IMG/VR virus record: IMGVR_UViG_3300029319_000026
Coordinates: 1-23,512 of that record
Reading direction: 5' to 3' (one strand)
Origin: a virus
Length of the DNA: 23,512 nucleotides
The position numbers and the translations under genes are program-made. Every line of letters starts with the position of its first letter. Position 1 is the stretch's first letter. The notes under the pieces are model-generated. The model was not told the origin of the DNA. It was given only the letters and a program-made list of their open reading frames with translations, and made no database searches. Positions 2,388 through 12,703 of the stretch are shown here, piece after piece.

Positions 2388-2728
2388 GTTTTTTTGATTC
2401 CGAAGTCGTTCGTGCTGAAATGGTTGAAATTGGTGAATTGCAAGAAGATGTTTATAAGAACGTCTTCAACTTTGCATCAATGGATAAGGAAGAGAAACTC
2501 TTTCATGTTGGTATGCTAGAGAGACTTCTGGATAAACAGAAGATTCTCTACACTCGGTTGAGTCTGTCTGACGATGCTGAGGCACAAGAAATGAAAGAAC
2601 GCATCCTTGAATCTGCAGTGATGATGGGTCTCCCTAAGGGGACTGATATGAATATGGTATTCAATAACATGTCCAAGATGCTTGAAGTGATGAAGGATCA
2701 GATTGACAAGTCTGGTTCTGACCTGTAG
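2384..2728 (+). CDS. DUF1825-like protein between gp59 and gp32
   Basis: A 114-aa alpha-helical, acidic protein with no signal peptide or membrane segment. It starts MSFFDSEVV, has a central LERLLDKQKILYTRLSLSDD block and ends in a helical VFNNMSKMLEVMKDQ segment. The FFDSE start, the helix before an SxD segment and the terminal M..MLE.MK helix match my recollection of DUF1825, a small family found mainly in cyanobacteria and their phages; its function is unknown. The start overlaps the gp59 stop (ATGA), indicating translational coupling with the fork-loading and ssDNA-binding proteins, so a replication accessory role is a reasonable but unproved guess. Family assignment is by remembered motif only. 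Confidence 0.6.
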   Translation: MSFFDSEVVRAEMVEIGELQEDVYKNVFNFASMDKEEKLFHVGMLERLLDKQKILYTRLSLSDDAEAQEMKERILESAVMMGLPKGTDMNMVFNNMSKMLEVMKDQIDKSGSDL

Positions 2729-2733
2729 AATAA

Positions 2734-2775
2734 CGTGGTCCACACAAGCCAAATCCAACAAATCTAATTAATCCT
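2734..2775 (+). promoter_or_regulatory. Possible gp32 mRNA leader / translational operator
   Basis: The leader before gp32 has a small dyad (GTGG-T-CCAC, 2735-2743) followed by about 30 nt of A/C/T-rich, apparently unstructured sequence, with no Shine-Dalgarno sequence before the ATG. In T4, gp32 represses its own translation by binding a pseudoknot plus an unstructured leader. The arrangement here is reminiscent but much simpler; the assignment is inference. Confidence 0.25.
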
Positions 2776-3741
2776 ATGTCTTTTTCTAATCTCAAAAAGC
2801 AATCCAATCTTGGTTCCCTGACTCAGAAACTGGTCAAGGAAGTCGAAAAGATGAATAACACTGGTGGCGGTGGTGATGACCGTCTCTGGAAACCCGAAAT
2901 GGATAAGACTGGTAATGGATACGCAGTTATCCGTTTCCTGCCCGCACCAGATGGAGAAGAACTCCCTTGGGCGAAGATGTACTCCCATGCCTTCCAAGGT
3001 CCTGGTGGTTGGTACATCGAGAACTCTCTGACCACTCTGGGTCAGAAGGATCCTGTGTCTGAGCACAACCGTGAACTGTGGAACAGTGGACTTGATTCTG
3101 ACAAGGACACCGTTCGTAAGCAGAAACGCAAACTGTCTTACTATGCCAACATCTATGTTGTGCAAGACAAAGCAAACCCTCAGAACGAAGGTAAAGTCTT
3201 CCTCTATAAGTTTGGTAAGAAGATCTTTGACAAGATCATGGAAGCAATGCAACCTGAGTTTGAAGATGAAGAAGCAATCAACCCCTTTGATTTCTGGGCT
3301 GGTGCTAACTTCAAACTGAAACTGAAGAAGGTTGCAGGTTACTGGAACTATGACTCTTCTGAGTTTGATCGTCCTGGTGCTCTGCTGGACGATGACGATG
3401 CACTGGAAGCACTGTGGAACAAGCAGTATTCACTGACTGCTCTGACTGCTGCTGATCAGTTCAAGTCCTATGAGCAATTGGAGACTCGTCTGAAGATGGT
3501 TCTGGGTCAGAAGTCTGCACCTCGTTACGATGAGGAGACTGCTGATGAGGACAATGATCGTGGATCTTTTGCCCCTAACTTCTCTTCCCGCGAATCTAAT
3601 CCTGTCCCTCAGGATCTGAAGAACGAACTCAATTCTTTGAGTGAAGGACGAGACTTCAACTCACAAGACATCACTCCATCTAACTCTTCTGAGGACGAAG
3701 ATGATGCACTGTCTTACTTCCAAAAACTGGCAGAGAGTTGA
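2776..3741 (+). CDS. 32: Single-stranded DNA-binding protein gp32
   Basis: A 321-aa homologue of T4 gp32, which coats ssDNA during replication, recombination and repair and contacts gp59. The basic N-terminal region (about 1-25) corresponds to the cooperativity domain. The core OB region has the block KLSYYANIYVVQDKANP...EGKVFLYKFGKKI, closely matching T4 KTSYWANILVVKDPAAP...EGKVFKYRFGKKI. A long acidic C-terminus (DEETADEDND to SSEDEDDALSY) corresponds to the partner-binding tail. The protein contains no cysteine at all, so the T4 zinc site (three Cys and one His) is absent; the corresponding segment is ENSLTTLGQKDPVSEHNREL. Codon use is richer in G+C than in the structural genes. The gene ends exactly where the convergent gp53 gene ends. 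Confidence 0.93.
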   Translation: MSFSNLKKQSNLGSLTQKLVKEVEKMNNTGGGGDDRLWKPEMDKTGNGYAVIRFLPAPDGEELPWAKMYSHAFQGPGGWYIENSLTTLGQKDPVSEHNRELWNSGLDSDKDTVRKQKRKLSYYANIYVVQDKANPQNEGKVFLYKFGKKIFDKIMEAMQPEFEDEEAINPFDFWAGANFKLKLKKVAGYWNYDSSEFDRPGALLDDDDALEALWNKQYSLTALTAADQFKSYEQLETRLKMVLGQKSAPRYDEETADEDNDRGSFAPNFSSRESNPVPQDLKNELNSLSEGRDFNSQDITPSNSSEDEDDALSYFQKLAES

Positions 3742-4404
3742 TTAAGAGAACAGTCTAATATTATCAGCACGTTTCAGGGTTTCAGTCATATATTGACTGG
3801 AACCTTTTTTGTATTTCATTGAATCTTCAAAGTCGTCAATTATAACATTTAAATATCTTTGCTTAAGAAGAAATATATTTCTCTTATCATTGTTTAATTT
3901 CTCTTCATGCTGATAGTTTGTTATAGAGACAACCGGTTTTTCAGTTGTCATTCGACCAGTATCACCATTATAATAAGTAATGGAATAATCGGATGTCACT
4001 ACTAATCCAGCAGGAACAATAGTTACATTTTCATTATTTTTTATTTCTGTTGTTTCATAATGATGAATCTCATTTAATTTCTCATAAGTTCCATACTTTT
4101 CAAGGAGATAATCATCAAATTCTATTTGGTTTAATGGCCACTCATCTTGAATGTTTACGATGTTATTACTAGTTAAAACAACCCAGTCAAGATCCATTCT
4201 ACCGTAGACATCAAATGCTACATTGTCTGGTCTATCATTACCTTTGATTTGATACTTAGTAAAGAATGCCAAGTCTTGATAGATGTCTTCTCTAAGTAAT
4301 ACTTTCTTAAAAAGATTTTTTACAGTAATGTAATCTGATATATTAGCATCAGGAAGTCTGCTGACATATTCAAAATCTGGAATTTTGTTAAAGTAATTTG
4401 ACAT
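3742..4404 (-). CDS. 53: Baseplate wedge subunit gp53
   Basis: A 220-aa homologue of T4 gp53 (about 196 aa), the wedge protein that joins neighbouring wedges around the hub during baseplate assembly. The N-terminus (NYFNKIPDFEYVSRLPDA, then VKNLFKK) and the central segment RPDNVAFDVYG...LDWVVLTSNNIVN...EWPL are the characteristic gp53 pattern: a phage protein whose conserved core names a Y/W-rich stretch before a LSNNI-type turn. The start lies 1 nt after the gp48 stop, so both are read from one mRNA. Its stop codon abuts the gp32 stop with no spacer, leaving no room for a dedicated terminator. Confidence 0.85.
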   Translation of the reverse strand: MSNYFNKIPDFEYVSRLPDANISDYITVKNLFKKVLLREDIYQDLAFFTKYQIKGNDRPDNVAFDVYGRMDLDWVVLTSNNIVNIQDEWPLNQIEFDDYLLEKYGTYEKLNEIHHYETTEIKNNENVTIVPAGLVVTSDYSITYYNGDTGRMTTEKPVVSITNYQHEEKLNNDKRNIFLLKQRYLNVIIDDFEDSMKYKKGSSQYMTETLKRADNIRLFS

Positions 4405-5688: not shown

Positions 5689-6039
5689 TTATTTATTTAG
5701 CACACGTTTTCCATATTGTAGAGATAACAAATCATCAAGCTCATCTTTTTCTACAATGTAAACTTGAGTTCCTAGTTCTTCCCAAGTATAATTTCTATAG
5801 TCTCCATGATGAAAGTTGATTCCACGAAATCCCCATCGAAATATTTCAGTTACTGCAACTAGTGGGTGCTGATCGTACTCAATGTTAGGTGTCTTCGCAA
5901 AGTATTTGAATGTACAGAAGTTTCCTGCTTCTGGTATTGGTGTTACCGTATCATTCAGTGCATACATTATAAGTTCCATTCTATCTTCAACATCTGTTTC
6001 CGACTGAATGTCTTGCCTTATTGGTTCGATGCGATTCAT
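5689..6039 (-). CDS. Conserved cyanophage protein of unknown function
   Basis: A 116-aa soluble protein between gp4 and gp48 on the same strand. Its centre (NFCTFKYFAKTPNIEYDQHP, then LVAVTEIFRWGFRGINFHHG) follows a pattern seen in several T4-like phage structural or packaging proteins: a Y-x-x-x-P-L-V strand followed by a G-F-x-G-x-N-F-H-x turn. I cannot assign a function. The start overlaps the gp4 stop by 4 nt (6036-6039), so it is translationally coupled to head completion; the context suggests a virion or assembly role. It could be a short relative of the longer proteins with this motif. Confidence 0.7.
   Translation of the reverse strand: MNRIEPIRQDIQSETDVEDRMELIMYALNDTVTPIPEAGNFCTFKYFAKTPNIEYDQHPLVAVTEIFRWGFRGINFHHGDYRNYTWEELGTQVYIVEKDELDDLLSLQYGKRVLNK
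5690..5697 (-). promoter_or_regulatory. Late-type promoter candidate upstream of gp48
   Basis: On the minus strand this reads AATAAATA, one mismatch from the T4 late consensus TATAAATA, 16 nt upstream of the gp48 start and overlapping the stop of the preceding gene. It would give gp48-gp53 an additional late transcript. AT-rich background makes this uncertain. Confidence 0.35.
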
Positions 6040-6479
6040 TTGATACCCAGTTCGTCTTCTGTGATTACTTTGAATTCAATTCTTCTATCTTCACAAAATT
6101 CAACTGCTGCTTTCCACTTTGCTTGATTGACTGCATAAGTCTTACACTCATACAAATATGATTTAGTAACTCTTGATTTCTTTTTTGGTGGTTGGGTCTG
6201 TCTCTTTGGTTTCACTTCAACCACATATGTCTTGGTAGCACCATTTGTTTCTTTTACCTTCATAATAAAGTCTGGGAAGTATCTATGCACCCTATTATCT
6301 ACTGGTGAGACATAAGGTATAAAAAATTCTTCACTACCCCACTCAAGAACATTTTCGTTCAAGTCACAATATCTACAAAACTTTCTTTCCCAACTACTAC
6401 GACAAATAATATTATTTGGATTGCCCTTATACTTTCTGGGAAACGATGGTTTGTATTTGCTTTTAATACTTTCGGCCAT
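6036..6479 (-). CDS. 4: Head completion protein gp4 (PD-(D/E)XK fold)
   Basis: A 147-aa homologue of T4 gp4 (also called gp50/65 in older maps), needed to complete DNA-filled heads before tail joining. Highly characteristic segments: RKYKGNPNNIICRSSWERKF, CDLNENVLEWGSEEFFIPY, then VHRYFPDF and YVVEVKPKRQT. Candidate catalytic residues of a PD-(D/E)XK nuclease are visible: E31 (SSWE), D70 (FPDF), E88 and K90 (VEVK). This suggests trimming of DNA at the portal, though the nuclease role is inferred from the motif. It is the first gene of the leftward block; a perfect TATAAATA lies 24 nt upstream. It overlaps the next gene by 4 nt. Confidence 0.92.
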   Translation of the reverse strand: MAESIKSKYKPSFPRKYKGNPNNIICRSSWERKFCRYCDLNENVLEWGSEEFFIPYVSPVDNRVHRYFPDFIMKVKETNGATKTYVVEVKPKRQTQPPKKKSRVTKSYLYECKTYAVNQAKWKAAVEFCEDRRIEFKVITEDELGIK

Positions 6480-6511: not shown

Positions 6512-7291
6512 ATGGCAACCGAAAGAGAGTCAGTAAAAAGAAAAAGATTTGATGATATCAGAAGCAGTATTATAAGACCATCTTTAACATCTTATTTTGC
6601 TGTAGAGATTCCATTACCACCTGGAAGTCTAGGATCTGAATTGCAAGAAGTTCTTGGTACAAATCAGGGAACTATGAATCTGATGTGCAGTGAAACTAGT
6701 CTGCCTGGATCTCAATTAGCAACTCTTGATATAACAAATGATGCTACAGGTGTTACTGAGAAACATGCATATAGAAGACAGTTTGATGATAGAATAGATT
6801 TTACTTTCTATGTTGATGCGGAGCAATATCTTCCTATCAGATTTTTTGAAACCTGGATGAGATCTATTGTTAATGAAGATCCTGAGAAAGTAGCTAATAA
6901 CTCAACAGTATACAGAACGAAATATCCAAATGATTATATTGCTGATCAGGGATTAAAAATTTACAAGTTTGAAAGAGATTATACTTCTGTTCTAACTTAT
7001 GAATTTTTCAGATCATTTCCATTGAGTATTTCTTCAATGCCTGTTAGTTATGATGGAAACAATCTACTGAAGTGCAGTGTCTCTATGTCATATATTAGAT
7101 ATGTTCAAAGTGGTCCAAGTCAATTGGGTGGAGCAGGAGGTTCATTAGAAAATTTATTTGGACAGACTAAAGAAAGTCTTCTTTCTGATCCAAACGCAAA
7201 TCCATTCTCTTATAATCCACTTAATCAGGCTGCTAAATTATTTAATAATGGAACTAAGACTCTCAAGAGTGTTTTCTCAGGACTTGCCTGA
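6512..7291 (+). CDS. 54: Baseplate tail-tube initiator gp54
   Basis: A 259-aa protein of the tail-tube superfamily, which includes T4 gp19 (tube) and gp54 (initiator). It has LTSYFAVEIPLPPG near the N-terminus, CSETSLPGSQLATLDI at 53-68, a HAYRRQFDDRIDFTFYVD strand, FFETWMRSIV, and a C-terminal FFRSFPLSISSMPVSYDGNN...SVSMSYIRY. These are the tube-protein strand pattern and the W-M-x-x-I/V helix. gp54 fits better than gp19 because of the neighbours (gp4, gp48, gp53, gp26) and the extra C-terminal 45 residues after the tube-like domain. T4 gp54 is longer (320 aa). No Shine-Dalgarno sequence precedes the ATG; AAGG at 6491-6494 is too distant. Confidence 0.75.
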   Translation: MATERESVKRKRFDDIRSSIIRPSLTSYFAVEIPLPPGSLGSELQEVLGTNQGTMNLMCSETSLPGSQLATLDITNDATGVTEKHAYRRQFDDRIDFTFYVDAEQYLPIRFFETWMRSIVNEDPEKVANNSTVYRTKYPNDYIADQGLKIYKFERDYTSVLTYEFFRSFPLSISSMPVSYDGNNLLKCSVSMSYIRYVQSGPSQLGGAGGSLENLFGQTKESLLSDPNANPFSYNPLNQAAKLFNNGTKTLKSVFSGLA

Positions 7292-7332: not shown

Positions 7333-8052
7333 ATGCCTTTACCAAAGATTGCCACACCGACATATGAGTTGGAATTACCTTCTACTGAGGAGACAATCAA
7401 ATTCAGACCCTTCTTAGTTAAAGAGGAAAAACTTCTTGTTCTTGCATTAGAAAGTGAAGATACTAAACAGATTACTACAGCAATCAAAAACGTAATTAAG
7501 AATTGTATTTTAACAAAAGGTGTTAAAGTAGAAACTCTTCCTACGTTTGATATTGAATATCTCTTCCTCAACATTCGTGGTAAGTCTGTTGGTGAAGTTT
7601 TGGATGTTAATATTATTTGTCCTGATGATGGGGAGACTGAAGTTGAAGTAAAGATTGACCTTGATGAAATCAAAGTCAAAAAGAATGACGATCATAAGAG
7701 ACAAATTAAACTTGATGATTCTATTATGATGGAGATGAAGTATCCATCACTTGAACAGTTTGTTAAAAATAACTTTGACTTGAATGACAAGAATGCAATG
7801 GATCAATCATTTGAATTGATTGCTTCTTGTGTAGATAAGATTTATTCTGAGGATGAAGTTTGGGCAGCAGCAGATTGCACCAAGAAAGAGATGACTGAGT
7901 TCTTAGAACAAATGAATTCGTCTCAGTTTAAAGAGATTGAATCTTTCTTTGAAACTATGCCTAAGTTGTCGCATACAATTAAGGTTAAGAATCCAAATAC
8001 AAAGAAAGAAAATGAAATTGTACTTGAGGGTCTTGCAAGTTTTTTCGCATAG
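7333..8052 (+). CDS. 26: Baseplate hub assembly protein gp26 (0-frame product)
   Basis: A 239-aa member of the T4 gp26 baseplate family. The N-terminal half has PTYELELPSTEETIKFRPFL, then VKEEKLLVLALES and a helical IKNVIKNCI segment, then the strand pair IRGKSVGEVLDVNIICPDDG. A second half with VEVKIDLDEIKVKK and the helical LEQFVKN...SFELIASCVDKIY follows. T4 gp26 helps assemble the central hub. The last sense codons (Ser236-Phe-Phe-Ala239) contain a T TTT TTC heptamer at 8040-8046, just before the TAG, and the -1 frame continues into the gp51-like ORF. This architecture parallels the G/GT tail assembly chaperones of other long-tailed phages, so this may be the short form of such a chaperone. 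Confidence 0.85.
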   Translation: MPLPKIATPTYELELPSTEETIKFRPFLVKEEKLLVLALESEDTKQITTAIKNVIKNCILTKGVKVETLPTFDIEYLFLNIRGKSVGEVLDVNIICPDDGETEVEVKIDLDEIKVKKNDDHKRQIKLDDSIMMEMKYPSLEQFVKNNFDLNDKNAMDQSFELIASCVDKIYSEDEVWAAADCTKKEMTEFLEQMNSSQFKEIESFFETMPKLSHTIKVKNPNTKKENEIVLEGLASFFA

Positions 8053-8081
8053 CTCTGGTTCACATGAACCTAGAGAGCTAT
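8040..8081 (+). promoter_or_regulatory. Predicted -1 ribosomal frameshift signal (slippery heptamer plus hairpin)
   Basis: In the gp26 frame, codons AGT TTT TTC contain the canonical X XXY YYZ heptamer T TTT TTC (8040-8046). A hairpin follows at once: ATAGCTCT (8049-8056) pairs perfectly with AGAGCTAT (8074-8081), and above a 3-nt bulge (8071-8073) GGTTC (8057-8061) pairs with GAACC (8066-8070) around the loop ACAT. The spacer is 2 nt if the stem is fully formed and 4-6 nt if its lower pairs are melted. The 0-frame stop TAG (8050-8052) is in the lower stem; the only ATG of the downstream ORF (8064) begins in the loop. Confidence 0.75.
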
Positions 8082-8234
8082 TACCGACTTAACTTTGCCT
8101 TGATGCAGTATCATAAATATTCATTAACAGAGATTGAAAATATGATGCCGTGGGAGAGAGACATTTATGTTGCTCTCTTACAACAACACCTTGAGGAAGA
8201 AAAGTTAAAACAGCAGGCAGCAAATGGACCTTGA
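8046..8234 (+). CDS. 51: gp51-like extension in the -1 frame of gp26 (predicted gp26-51 fusion)
   Basis: A short ORF that encodes MNLESYYRLNFALMQYHKYS onward, 56 aa from the ATG at 8064 to the TGA at 8232-8234, with SLTEIENMMPWERDIYVALL in the middle and a charged helical end. It resembles the C-terminal extensions of phage tail assembly chaperones and the short proteins labelled gp51 in T4-like cyanophages, as I recall; T4 gp51 itself is much longer. The frame is open from 8028 (TGA at 8025-8027) and has no ATG, GTG or TTG before 8064, and no Shine-Dalgarno sequence. Reading through the slip at 8046 adds RIALVH and gives a 300-aa gp26 fusion. Independent initiation at 8064 is the alternative. 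It overlaps the next gene by 11 nt. Confidence 0.75.
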   Translation, partial: RIALVHMNLESYYRLNFALMQYHKYSLTEIENMMPWERDIYVALLQQHLEEEKLKQQAANGP

Positions 8235-10395
8235 TGAGCTTCTGAAATCTATAAGAGAGGAAGGAAATTCCACAGGTGGCAAAATTGTGCCTGCAAAGTT
8301 TTTGGGTGAGGATAAGTATGACAAATATTATAATGAACTTTTAACTGAGGGAAGAATTAAAGGAGATAATCTCTCACCTCAAGAAAGAAAAGAAGGTGCT
8401 AAAGCATATAGAAAAGGAAAGATAGACTTTAAAACTTTTGTTGATAAAGTTCTATCAGCAAAAAAAGAACAAAGTGTAGGAAGTTCTGGTGGACCTAAAA
8501 GTATAGGTTCCGGTGGTGGAGCACTTGTAGTAAGAAAGAAAACTATTTCAGCAGATGACATTAAGTCTGGTTCGTCTGTAGAGACTGAACAAAATCTAGA
8601 TGAAATCTTAAAGGGTATTGACTCTATCAGAGAGACCTTAAAGAAAGAAGAAGAATTAAAGAAGAAACAAGCATCGGATTCTAAAAGGTCAGAAGAAAGA
8701 AAGAAGAGAAAAGCAAAAGAAGAGAAGTTAGAAGGTTCTGTATTCAAGGGATTAGCAAATCAAACTAAGAAAGTTTTTGCACCTGTCAAGAGTATCCTTG
8801 ATAGAATGATTGAGTTCTTTACTAAAATTTTGATTGGAAGATTTCTTGTCAAACTTATTGGTTGGATGACTGATGAAAAGAATCAGAAAAAACTTAAAGC
8901 ACTTGGATTCTTATTAGAAAAAACTTGGCCAGCACTTGTCACTGCATTTGTATTATTTGGAACAGCATTTGGTGGAGTAATTAGAACTATTATAGGTTTA
9001 GCATTAAAGTATACGGGTAAACTTATAGGTGCTGCTGCTAGACTTGCAATAAAAAATCCTCTTGCTGCAGCTGCCGTAGCAGTTGTCGGTGGTGCTGCAA
9101 TTGGTGGTATCATGCAATCCCAAACACAATCAAACGATCCTGAGAGAGCAGCACAAGGTAAGACTCAGTTGGATGATACCTTAGAGTTTGGTGGTGCTAC
9201 TGGTGACCCAATGGGTGCATTGATGTTCAATAGTGGTGGACTTGCACCAGCACCAAAAGGAACAGATACTGTTCCTGCGATGCTAACTCCTGGTGAGTTT
9301 GTGATGAGTAAGGGTGCTGTTGATGCTTTTGGTACTGACTTTATGGAATCATTGAACTCTTTGGGTGGAGGAACTAATAAACCCAAGAGATCTAATGGAA
9401 CACTCTATGCTTCCTCTGGTGGTTCTACAAAAGAAGAACCTGGTGGTAGAAATAAAACGAAGCCAGAATCATCAGGAGGAATGGGATCATTCTTCTCCAA
9501 TCTTTTTACAAAAAAACCTGATAGTAAGAAGAATGAAGAAAAGAAAGACACCAAAGCTTCTCCTTCTGGTAAGATAAAGGGCAATACTTCCGGTACTAAT
9601 GAAGAAAGGTGGAAAGCTTTTTATGCGATGGGTCAAAAGGCTGGAGCAAAATATCCACAATTAGTCGCAGCACAATATGCATTAGAGTCTGGTTGGGGTT
9701 CTGCATTGTCTGCTAGGAACAACTTCTTTGGTATTAAAGCAACTGATTCTGAAAGTGCTACGGTTTCTAATACAAGAGAAGTAATTAATGGTCAGAATGT
9801 ATACATGGATGAAAGGTTCAAAAACTTTGAAACACCACAGGAGGCTGTCAATCACTTAGTAACTCAGTGGTATAAAGATTATCGTGGATATAAAGGTGTT
9901 AATAATGCATCGTCTGCTTTTGCTGCTGCTGATCAACTTTTGGCTGAGGATTATGCTACTGATCCTGAATATGCCAGGTCGTTGAAGAGACTGTTAAATC
10001 AGTATGCAGATGTTACTGGAGATGAAAAAGACATTGCAGCAGTTTCTGATAGTGGTTTTATTGCTTCTTCCCCAACTTCATCTGGAGGATTATCACCTAG
10101 TTCTTCTTCAAGTTCTTCCTCTGGAGCATCATCTATTGCAGCAAGTTTAAAGACGATACGATCTTATCTTGGATCCACATCGGGTGATCAGACAGCACAA
10201 CTTGGAAAGAATACTCCAAGTGTATCAACTCCGACACCACCAGTTAGATCTCAACCAAAGGTTCAAACTATTAACTCTGGATCGGAGTCTGGTGGTCAAG
10301 CAGAGTCTCTACCATTACTTTCTTCTGATACTCCTTTTATTCCATCACCTCCTGCTTCTGCAGAGAAGATGCTTGTTATGGGACTTCCAGCATAA
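8224..10395 (+). CDS. Tape-measure-like tail protein with glucosaminidase domain
   Basis: A 723-aa virion protein. Order: acidic N-terminus; Lys/Glu coiled coil (about 120-170); a short ILDRMIEFFTKILIGRFLVK segment (191-210) shared with the next gene; hydrophobic, Ala/Gly-rich membrane-like stretches (about 227-297); the motif GTDTVPAMLTPGEFVMSKGA (346-365), common near the ends of phage tape-measure proteins; then a FlgJ-type N-acetylglucosaminidase domain (about 455-595) with catalytic Glu488 in YALESGWG, NNFFGIKA and YATDPEYA (577-584). A Ser-rich linker follows. The position after the gp26/51 assembly proteins and before the hub genes fits a tape measure carried inside the tube, with the enzyme cutting host peptidoglycan at injection. 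It starts inside the gp51 ORF. Confidence 0.75.
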   Translation: MDLDELLKSIREEGNSTGGKIVPAKFLGEDKYDKYYNELLTEGRIKGDNLSPQERKEGAKAYRKGKIDFKTFVDKVLSAKKEQSVGSSGGPKSIGSGGGALVVRKKTISADDIKSGSSVETEQNLDEILKGIDSIRETLKKEEELKKKQASDSKRSEERKKRKAKEEKLEGSVFKGLANQTKKVFAPVKSILDRMIEFFTKILIGRFLVKLIGWMTDEKNQKKLKALGFLLEKTWPALVTAFVLFGTAFGGVIRTIIGLALKYTGKLIGAAARLAIKNPLAAAAVAVVGGAAIGGIMQSQTQSNDPERAAQGKTQLDDTLEFGGATGDPMGALMFNSGGLAPAPKGTDTVPAMLTPGEFVMSKGAVDAFGTDFMESLNSLGGGTNKPKRSNGTLYASSGGSTKEEPGGRNKTKPESSGGMGSFFSNLFTKKPDSKKNEEKKDTKASPSGKIKGNTSGTNEERWKAFYAMGQKAGAKYPQLVAAQYALESGWGSALSARNNFFGIKATDSESATVSNTREVINGQNVYMDERFKNFETPQEAVNHLVTQWYKDYRGYKGVNNASSAFAAADQLLAEDYATDPEYARSLKRLLNQYADVTGDEKDIAAVSDSGFIASSPTSSGGLSPSSSSSSSSGASSIAASLKTIRSYLGSTSGDQTAQLGKNTPSVSTPTPPVRSQPKVQTINSGSESGGQAESLPLLSSDTPFIPSPPASAEKMLVMGLPA

Positions 10396-10405
10396 GGTAT
10401 AAGAT

Positions 10406-12703
10406 ATGGCAATAACTTCTCAAAAACTTTTACCATCATCTAAATCAAATAGTTCTTCTATTGTCAAAGTAAAGACAACTAAAGTGAGTGCAAGTTCTCT
10501 CACGCCAGTTGGTAAGAAGTTTGATGTGATGAAGGATAAAATTTTTGAAGTTGATAAGATTTTAAAAGGAACTCTTGCTGCAGACAAAAAGAAAATAACG
10601 GATGATAAGAAGCAAGAAGAGAAGCAGAGAAGAAATAAACGTGAAGATAAGTCTGAGGAGAAAAAGAAATCACCAGAAGAAAAGAAAGGAAAAGGTCTTA
10701 AGTTACCAAAGATAGGATTCTTAGATAGAATTAAAAACTTCTTAACCACTATTCTCTTGGGTTATGTTCTCAAGAACCTTGTTGGTAATGGCAGTATTGT
10801 TGATGGTATTGGTAAAATTTTAAAAGGAGTTACTGTAGCTGTTGAGTTCACTGCAGATCTTATAATCGGTGTCCTTGATGGTCTAGGATCTTTTGCACTA
10901 TTTGTTCAGAATAAGCACAAACAAATTGAAGAATACTCTAAGGATAAATTTGGTGAAGATGGTGTCAAAAAGTTTAAGAAACTTTCTGATTCACTGTTCA
11001 ATCTTATAAATGCTTTCTTGATTGTTAGTATGGTAAAACCTGGGAGGGATAAACCAGGCAAACCAGGCAGAAAACCAGGTAAACCAGGTAGTAAACCTAA
11101 AGTTAAACCAAGAACTAGACCAAGTAAAGATGTAAAGAATAGATTAACCAGTAAGGAAGTCAGAAAAAGATATGCAAGAAGATATGGAAATGAAGCTGCC
11201 AAACAAAGGTTTAAGGGTAATGTAAGAACTCCAGTAAAAGGAAATGTTCTTAGTAGGGGTCTTAATAAAGCACCTCAAAGAATGGCAGTTAAATTCTTTG
11301 GTAAGGGTGCCACTAAGGTGGTCAAAAAAGCGTTTGGAAAAATTCCAATCATGGGTCCTGTCATTGTGGCAGTATCAACTCTTCTTGAAGATAATGATGA
11401 TAATGGAATGCCTGATTTCAATTTCAGTAAAGCATTATTTACTGGAATAGGTGCTGCTCTGGGTGGTCTTTTAGGATCATTCATACCAATTCCTATTCTT
11501 GGAACTTTGATTGGTGAGGGTATTGGACTCTTCATTGGTGATTTGATGTATGAATTGGTTGCTGGTGGTGGAATTGAAGAAGTTGGTAAAAAATTACAAG
11601 ATGCTTTGAAGACTGCTATGATGGTTGGAACAGCAGTTAAAGATTTCTTTGTCAGTGGATTTAAGAATTTTACTAAACAATTATTTGAAAAGAATCCAGT
11701 TGAAATACCAGATGGACTTGGAAGAAGATCTGCGGCAACTAAACTTGCAGAAATGCTTGGGATGAAACAATTCCTTAAAGAAAGAGGATATGTAGATGCG
11801 AAGGATCAGGTTACTAAATTCCCTAATCTTTTGAATATTGTCAATCCTCTTGCTTTTGTTCCTATGTTGGCATCATCATTCTTACCTGATGTGTTTGGAC
11901 CGAAAGCAACACCACCAGCACCTACTGTTGCTAAAACTGTAGATGCAACACAAGGTCCTACAAGTACTACAGGTCCTACAAGTTATACAGGTTCTGGTAC
12001 AACAAAAACTGTTACTATGCCTAGTAGTGGTGATATTGTTGAGATTGGTAAAAACTTGGCTAGAAAAGGATTCTCTGTTGCAGAACATCCAGATTTTACC
12101 AAAACTCCAACACCAGCTGGAGGGACATATACACCAGGACAAGGATATGTTTCTGATGTTCACAGAGGTGTTGGTCACTATGAAGGAAGAGCAATTGATG
12201 TAACAAACTGGCGTGGTGGAGACCCTGAATATAAGCAAGCATATCTTCCAGTATTAAATTCACTTGAAAAAAATCCAAAGATTAAAATGTTGATACATGA
12301 TAATTGGGGATTTTATAAAAATGGTAATAAGTCTGGTCCTGGAGCACATGGACACCCAGAGCATATGCATATTGAGGTTAAAGATAGGGGCGGTAAGATT
12401 GGTAAGGGACTCTTTGCAAACTTAGGTGGACCTGAGTTTGTCATTGACTCTGACTCATACATGGCAATTGAAAGTACTTTACCAGGATTCCTTAAGGCAC
12501 TGAACAATGCAGAAGGAAAGCAAGCAGTTAAAGTATTAGAAAACTATGCATCATATGAAGGTATGGGTGGAGAAACTATCATTGTAAATAATATCCAGAA
12601 AGTATCACCATCTAAATCCAAATCAAAATCTGGTGGATCTAATATTATTATGGGCGGTGGTTCTGGTGTTAGTCAGACAGATATTACCTATGCAATGGGT
12701 TAA
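10406..12703 (+). CDS. Tape-measure-like tail protein with M15-like peptidase domain
   Basis: A 765-aa virion protein related to the preceding one: Lys/Glu coiled coil (about 58-98), then FLDRIKNFLTTILLGYVLKN (105-124), matching its neighbour's ILDRMIEFF...GRFLVK segment; hydrophobic stretches at 110-170, 196-210 and 340-390; a collagen-like KPG repeat (about 211-228); a putative zinc peptidase at about 540-660 with H591-x6-D598 (HYEGRAID) and H653/H655-x-E657 (HMHIE), the ligand pattern of M15-type peptidoglycan peptidases. A tape-measure-like GGPEFVIDSDSYMAIE (674-689) follows. Predicted to cut the peptide part of the cell wall, complementing the glucosaminidase next door. Whether one or both proteins set tail length cannot be decided here. 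Confidence 0.7.
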   Translation: MAITSQKLLPSSKSNSSSIVKVKTTKVSASSLTPVGKKFDVMKDKIFEVDKILKGTLAADKKKITDDKKQEEKQRRNKREDKSEEKKKSPEEKKGKGLKLPKIGFLDRIKNFLTTILLGYVLKNLVGNGSIVDGIGKILKGVTVAVEFTADLIIGVLDGLGSFALFVQNKHKQIEEYSKDKFGEDGVKKFKKLSDSLFNLINAFLIVSMVKPGRDKPGKPGRKPGKPGSKPKVKPRTRPSKDVKNRLTSKEVRKRYARRYGNEAAKQRFKGNVRTPVKGNVLSRGLNKAPQRMAVKFFGKGATKVVKKAFGKIPIMGPVIVAVSTLLEDNDDNGMPDFNFSKALFTGIGAALGGLLGSFIPIPILGTLIGEGIGLFIGDLMYELVAGGGIEEVGKKLQDALKTAMMVGTAVKDFFVSGFKNFTKQLFEKNPVEIPDGLGRRSAATKLAEMLGMKQFLKERGYVDAKDQVTKFPNLLNIVNPLAFVPMLASSFLPDVFGPKATPPAPTVAKTVDATQGPTSTTGPTSYTGSGTTKTVTMPSSGDIVEIGKNLARKGFSVAEHPDFTKTPTPAGGTYTPGQGYVSDVHRGVGHYEGRAIDVTNWRGGDPEYKQAYLPVLNSLEKNPKIKMLIHDNWGFYKNGNKSGPGAHGHPEHMHIEVKDRGGKIGKGLFANLGGPEFVIDSDSYMAIESTLPGFLKALNNAEGKQAVKVLENYASYEGMGGETIIVNNIQKVSPSKSKSKSGGSNIIMGGGSGVSQTDITYAMG

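Follow-up and report, generated by a model that had tools for sequence, protein, structure and literature searches.

The locus raises the question of whether gp26 and gp51 are two proteins with separate starts or two products of a single gene. The window, which is the whole stretch of 23,512 nucleotides analyzed here, comes from a T4-related cyanophage, with the Synechococcus phage S-SM2 as the closest named match (gp26 identity 79.5%). The gp26 gene (7333..8052, plus strand) is an open reading frame for 239 amino acids that matches Pfam family PF12322 (E 5.1e-78), which includes both T4 gp26 and T4 gp51, as well as the baseplate hub family phrog_150 (E 1.1e-83). The PF12322 score of 262 bits compares with a curated cut-off of 24.5, and only one copy of the family was found in the 68.7-kb record. 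As argued below, a single tail assembly chaperone gene very probably specifies both gp26 and gp51, with the long form made by a -1 ribosomal slip.

The gp26 gene ends in AGT TTT TTC GCA TAG, which places a slippery heptamer, T TTT TTC, at 8040..8046 on the plus strand in the phase of gp26. The -1 frame has a stop codon at 8025-8027 and is open from 8028 to a TGA at 8232-8234. From the heptamer onwards it encodes an extension of 62 codons plus the TGA (8046..8234, plus strand), with a match to phrog_634, the gp51 family in PHROGs (E 9.2e-31). Joining the two parts at the heptamer, join(7333..8046,8046..8234) on the plus strand, gives a predicted fused gene for 300 amino acids. Public annotation starts gp51 at the ATG at 8064..8066 (plus strand), where a frame of 56 amino acids begins, and the phrog_634 match begins upstream of this codon. 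The positions that the earlier note gave for the heptamer in the gp26 phase, for the closure of the -1 frame at 8025-8027 and for the 56-amino-acid frame were all confirmed.

Immediately upstream, gp26 is adjoined by a tail tube protein gene (6512..7291, plus strand; Phage_TTP_2, E 7e-9; phrog_45, E 6.1e-36). Downstream, a plus-strand gene with a glucosaminidase domain (8224..10395; Glucosaminidase, E 6.4e-18) overlaps the 3' end of the extension and is a candidate for the tape-measure gene based on weak profile matches, the best of which has an E-value of 0.0014. Thus, a large gene does adjoin the locus, although its identity as the tape-measure gene, as assumed in the earlier note, is only probable. 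It is followed by another large gene (10406-12703); a phrog_35029-like N-terminus is seen in both, weakly in the second, and either of them may be the tape-measure gene. On the minus strand at 6036-6479 lies a gp4-like head closure gene with a match to a TnsA-like endonuclease (E 1.3e-23). No tRNA genes were found in the window, and scans of it for promoters and terminators gave matches at chance level only.

Conservation of the slip site was examined in an initial scan of 80 relatives with gp26 proteins 72–83% identical to that of the window. All 80 have TTTTTTC at a constant spacing to the gp26 stop, and in all 80 the -1 frame reads FFRxxxxH or nearly so. Scans with queries from S-PM2, HTVC008M, pf16 and T4 gp51 contributed another 181 loci, and annotated records of named phages were included manually. 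A gp51-like frame in the -1 phase and an in-phase T TTT TTN were present in each of the 257 scorable loci. Thus, the heptamer and the -1 phase, for which the earlier note had suggested an alignment of relatives, are universal in this set, and the opposite case, loss of the heptamer with gp51 retained, was found in 0 of the 257 relatives. The seventh base is C in 214 loci, T in 42 and G in one, a preference that matches measurements in E. coli, where U_UU.U_UU.Y ranks among the more efficient -1 motifs (PMC4066793). The preceding codon always ends in T (AGT, TCT, GAT, AAT, GGT, GCT or ACT). The heptamer T TTT TTN is also found in KVP40, Aeh1, HTVC008M, Melnitz, phiM7, RHph_N34, pf16, ACP17, Desulfovibrio 7757, Phosso and others, and seven further named phages agree (Aeh1, S13, VmeM-32, BUCT608, SH-Ab 15599, ZPAH1 and Phosso).

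At first sight, 30 loci lacked the heptamer. On inspection, 29 of these carry it (the group L207–L264, e.g. L207, L222 and L237), 31 bases upstream of a gp26 stop that lies seven codons further on, eight codons past the heptamer; the remaining locus, L177, is a contig in which the frame of gp26 is broken. In the group of 29, about 24 bases are read in two frames, and the short form gets a variable tail. The gp51 frame of another locus, L274, is also broken; since close relatives of both are intact, these two breaks are probably contig errors. A U6 heptamer was absent from two Ackermannviridae relatives that have a -1 frame. In both Salmonella phage Maynard (1354-2157 of locus L282) and Vibrio phage 1.244.A (1354-2246 of locus L283), a gp26 relative is followed by a -1 extension, and another slip signal or stop-start coupling may operate in these phages.

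The codon choice at the slip site was compared with the expectation from the codon usage of the remainder of these genes for 122 representatives with less than 88% identity. The resulting log10 P of -42.9 assumes independence and is overstated due to kinship among the sequences. Elsewhere in these genes, the form xxT TTT TTN was seen in just 2 of 133 other Phe-Phe pairs. No substitutions were observed in the heptamer in 88 disjoint sequence pairs (median upstream distance 0.16), as compared to changes at nearby third positions in about 9–33 of the 88. A -1 stop codon directly abuts the heptamer in 36 loci, and 14 of them have an open -1 window of 7–10 bases, corresponding to the heptamer plus at most three bases. 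Judged from the sequence comparisons, the conservation of the heptamer is not due to chance and goes beyond protein constraint alone.

Downstream of the heptamer, a two-tier RNA hairpin is predicted at 8049..8081 (plus strand), with a lower stem of 8 bp (8049-8056/8074-8081) and an apical stem of 5 bp (8057-8061/8066-8070). The predicted folding energy of the segment 8030-8110 was -24.0 kcal/mol (z = -3.56), and 0 of 200 shuffled sequences were as stable. The apical hairpin (8057..8070, plus strand) covaries among the 80 close relatives, with two-sided changes in all five pairs and a total of 47 two-sided cells, as compared to 10.7 in shuffles (0/500) and 3–12 in slid controls. Conservation of the lower 8-bp stem was not found in the relatives, and no consensus fold emerged from them with RNAalifold. 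Thus, the hairpin described in the earlier note is present and stable in the window, but only its apical 5 bp covary, and a two-tier hairpin common to the whole family was rejected. In more distant relatives, the hairpin is replaced by other folds, which suggests that the stimulator, if the hairpin is one, is lineage-specific. A downstream stimulatory structure is common, but not obligatory, in programmed -1 frameshifting. Instead of stimulation, or in addition to it, the hairpin may serve to conceal the AUG in its loop. We consider it a tentative and rather doubtful idea that, in the subgroup around the window, the covarying hairpin, beginning 10 bases past the slip site, both promotes slippage and conceals the extension's only AUG in its loop. 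If so, this double duty would leave the ratio of long to short chaperone to be set by frameshifting alone.

Comparison with T4 provides a natural control for the fused product. T4 gp26 (208 amino acids) and gp51 (249 amino acids) are homologous to the short and the long forms of the window, respectively. The ends of T4 gp26 and the short form coincide, whereas T4 gp51 runs on, and its last approximately 50 residues can be aligned with the -1 extension directly across the junction (a stretch of 28 letters against FFRIALVHMNLESYYRLNFALMQYHKYSL). By this alignment, T4 gp51 is the in-frame, colinear equivalent of the frameshift product. In T4, genes 26 and 51 are separate, located on opposite strands and without a frameshift, as compared to the single gene with a slip in the window; the two genes are also on opposite strands in 44RR. 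In RB43 (2501-3794 of locus L278), a gp51-like long form and a gp26-like short form are arranged in tandem on one strand, which is consistent with their having arisen by duplication. A tree of 33 domains places the short and long copies of the T-even phages together and apart from the frameshift-type genes, with support values of 96/95 (midpoint root, some long branches). The simplest reading of these sequences is that, in the T-even line, duplication took over from frameshifting. A review from 2016 describes the G-T frameshift as conserved in long-tailed phages with the exception of T4 (PMC5009743). The short and long paralogous genes of the T-even phages fit this exception, consistent with the replacement of frameshifting by duplication.

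The alternative that gp51 is a separate protein translated from ATG 8064, by free initiation or by re-initiation through translational coupling, with the overlap and the heptamer being incidental, agrees with the annotation in public records and with the stop-start overlap seen in some phages, such as KVP40, RHph_N34 and BUCT608. However, a start codon (ATG, GTG or TTG) is missing from the first 19 codons at 92 of the 257 loci (29 of the 122 representatives), and an upstream start in the same frame is also absent from these 92 loci. A ribosome-binding site is lacking as well: a Shine-Dalgarno match of at least four bases precedes 3 of 80 candidate gp51 ATGs, compared to 83 of 122 gp26 starts among the representatives. 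For the bases that separate the gp26 stop from the ATG, the pN/pS ratio is 0.27 in the -1 frame versus 1.56 and 4.21 in the other frames; by this measure, the -1 peptide upstream of the ATG is under purifying selection at the protein level. Along with the invariance of the heptamer and the colinearity of T4 gp51 with the fused product, these results make the separate protein highly improbable, and an independent start for gene 51 was rejected. This agrees with the objection to free initiation at 8064 in the earlier note. Since the ATG is common among close relatives, some free gp51 might be made from it where present, in addition to the long form made by frameshifting. We consider this combination of routes unlikely. 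In the window, the ATG has no Shine-Dalgarno sequence and begins in the loop of the covarying hairpin, and the methionine would be equally well explained if it belonged to the long form. Thus, ATG 8064 probably lies within the coding sequence of the long form, and independent initiation of gp51 is a side route at most. In the records of S-CAM1 (L082) and ACG-2014d (L083), the extension is unannotated yet intact in the -1 frame.

The long form might also be encoded by mRNAs with one extra U, if RNA polymerase slips on the run of six T. A homopolymer run is indeed present, and in E. coli, U7 motifs are under-represented whatever the frame; transcriptional slippage is among the explanations put forward for this (PMC4066793). 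However, most of the runs contain six T only, and the codon phase xxT TTT TTN is kept in 257 of 257 loci, although a slipping polymerase would be served equally well by TTT TTT preceded by a codon with another last base, an arrangement never seen at these loci. Given the constant codon phase, transcriptional slippage was judged to have a very low probability. The comparative data thus support the reading of gp26 and gp51 as one gene with a -1 ribosomal frameshift, giving products of 239 and 300 amino acids, as had been suggested for the window in the earlier note.

With ribosomal slippage, most ribosomes would terminate at 8050-8052 and release the 239-amino-acid short form. In a minority, the tRNAs in the P- and A-sites would re-pair from TTT TTC (8041-8046) to TTT TTT (8040-8045), and the slipped ribosomes would then read CGC at 8046 and continue to 8234, yielding the 300-amino-acid long form. 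Among the tryptic peptides predicted for the window, ENEIVLEGLASFFR and IALVHMNLESYYR belong to the frameshift product only and ENEIVLEGLASFFA to the short form. By analogy with gpG and gpGT of lambda, the tape-measure protein would be coated by many short and few long copies, and the extension of the long form would recruit the tail tube subunits.

The structural data were examined for support of a chaperone role. The model of gp26 from the window has a mean pLDDT of 86.8. A comparison of the model with the PDB gave no significant match (best E 0.42). The four highest probabilities among the PDB matches listed were 0.69, 0.60, 0.44 and 0.35, all obtained for solved structures of tail assembly chaperones, namely HK97 gp13 (two chains), 3FGX and YqbN, and the next was 0.12. 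The matches to 2OB9, 3FGX and 3KLU, which are tail assembly chaperones (PMC9603447), have probabilities in the range of 0.69–0.35 but E-values above 1. Neither gp26 nor T4 gp51 matched a solved structure by sequence, and the matches of the gp26 model among predicted viral structures were other gp26-type baseplate hub proteins. T4 gp26 and gp51 are included in a list of hub assembly chaperones (PMC3004832). A feature of G/GT-type chaperones, two forms with a common N-terminal part, is present by sequence (239 and 300 amino acids), and T4 has both forms as genes. Thus, gp26 is probably in the right place for a chaperone of the lambda G/GT type and has weakly the right fold, and we infer that a chaperone role is probable.

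Tail chaperones made by frameshifting are well known in phages and have already been reported for T4-like phages, so the novelty of the present case is limited. As cited by later papers, Vladimirov, Gautam and Davidson (Virology 2022, 566:9-15) identified the tail chaperone genes of T4-like phages (PMC10885494, PMC12846349); these are of the same family as the genes studied here, with short and long forms and poly-T slip sites. The PRFect paper cites their study for a short gene and a fused long gene in some T4-like phages (PMC10885494), an arrangement of two genes that differs from the single gene with a slip in the window, and the paper on Pseudomonas phage Adele cites it for the poly-T slip sites (PMC12846349). 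No paper on the cyanophage case itself was found in the literature, in which Vladimirov et al. (2022) was represented by its citing papers. Thus, the statement in the earlier note that no report was known for T4-like cyanophages may still stand for cyanophages, whereas the T4-like kind, according to these citing papers, had already been published. The locus resembles lambda gpG/gpGT in that its predicted -1 frameshift lies towards the end of the short form, in its position close to the tail tube gene and the candidate tape-measure gene, and in that neither form needs a separate start, but the sequences are different and look unrelated. Adele and other Vandenendeviridae likewise carry a conserved poly-T -1 slip site in the gene for the short form, and the -1 frame was open in every relative examined (PMC12846349). 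The motif in these phages is GTTTTT, and they represent another phage lineage, likened here by description.

The present analysis adds the breadth of the survey, the tests of selection and start loss, and the covarying apical hairpin. The heptamer T TTT TTN is apparently fixed in phages of cyanobacteria, Pelagibacter, Methylophilales, rhizobia, vibrios and others, which suggests a deeply conserved recoding site. The cyanophage records examined either list gp51 as a separate gene or omit it, and a real protein of 300 amino acids would therefore be missing from the databases.
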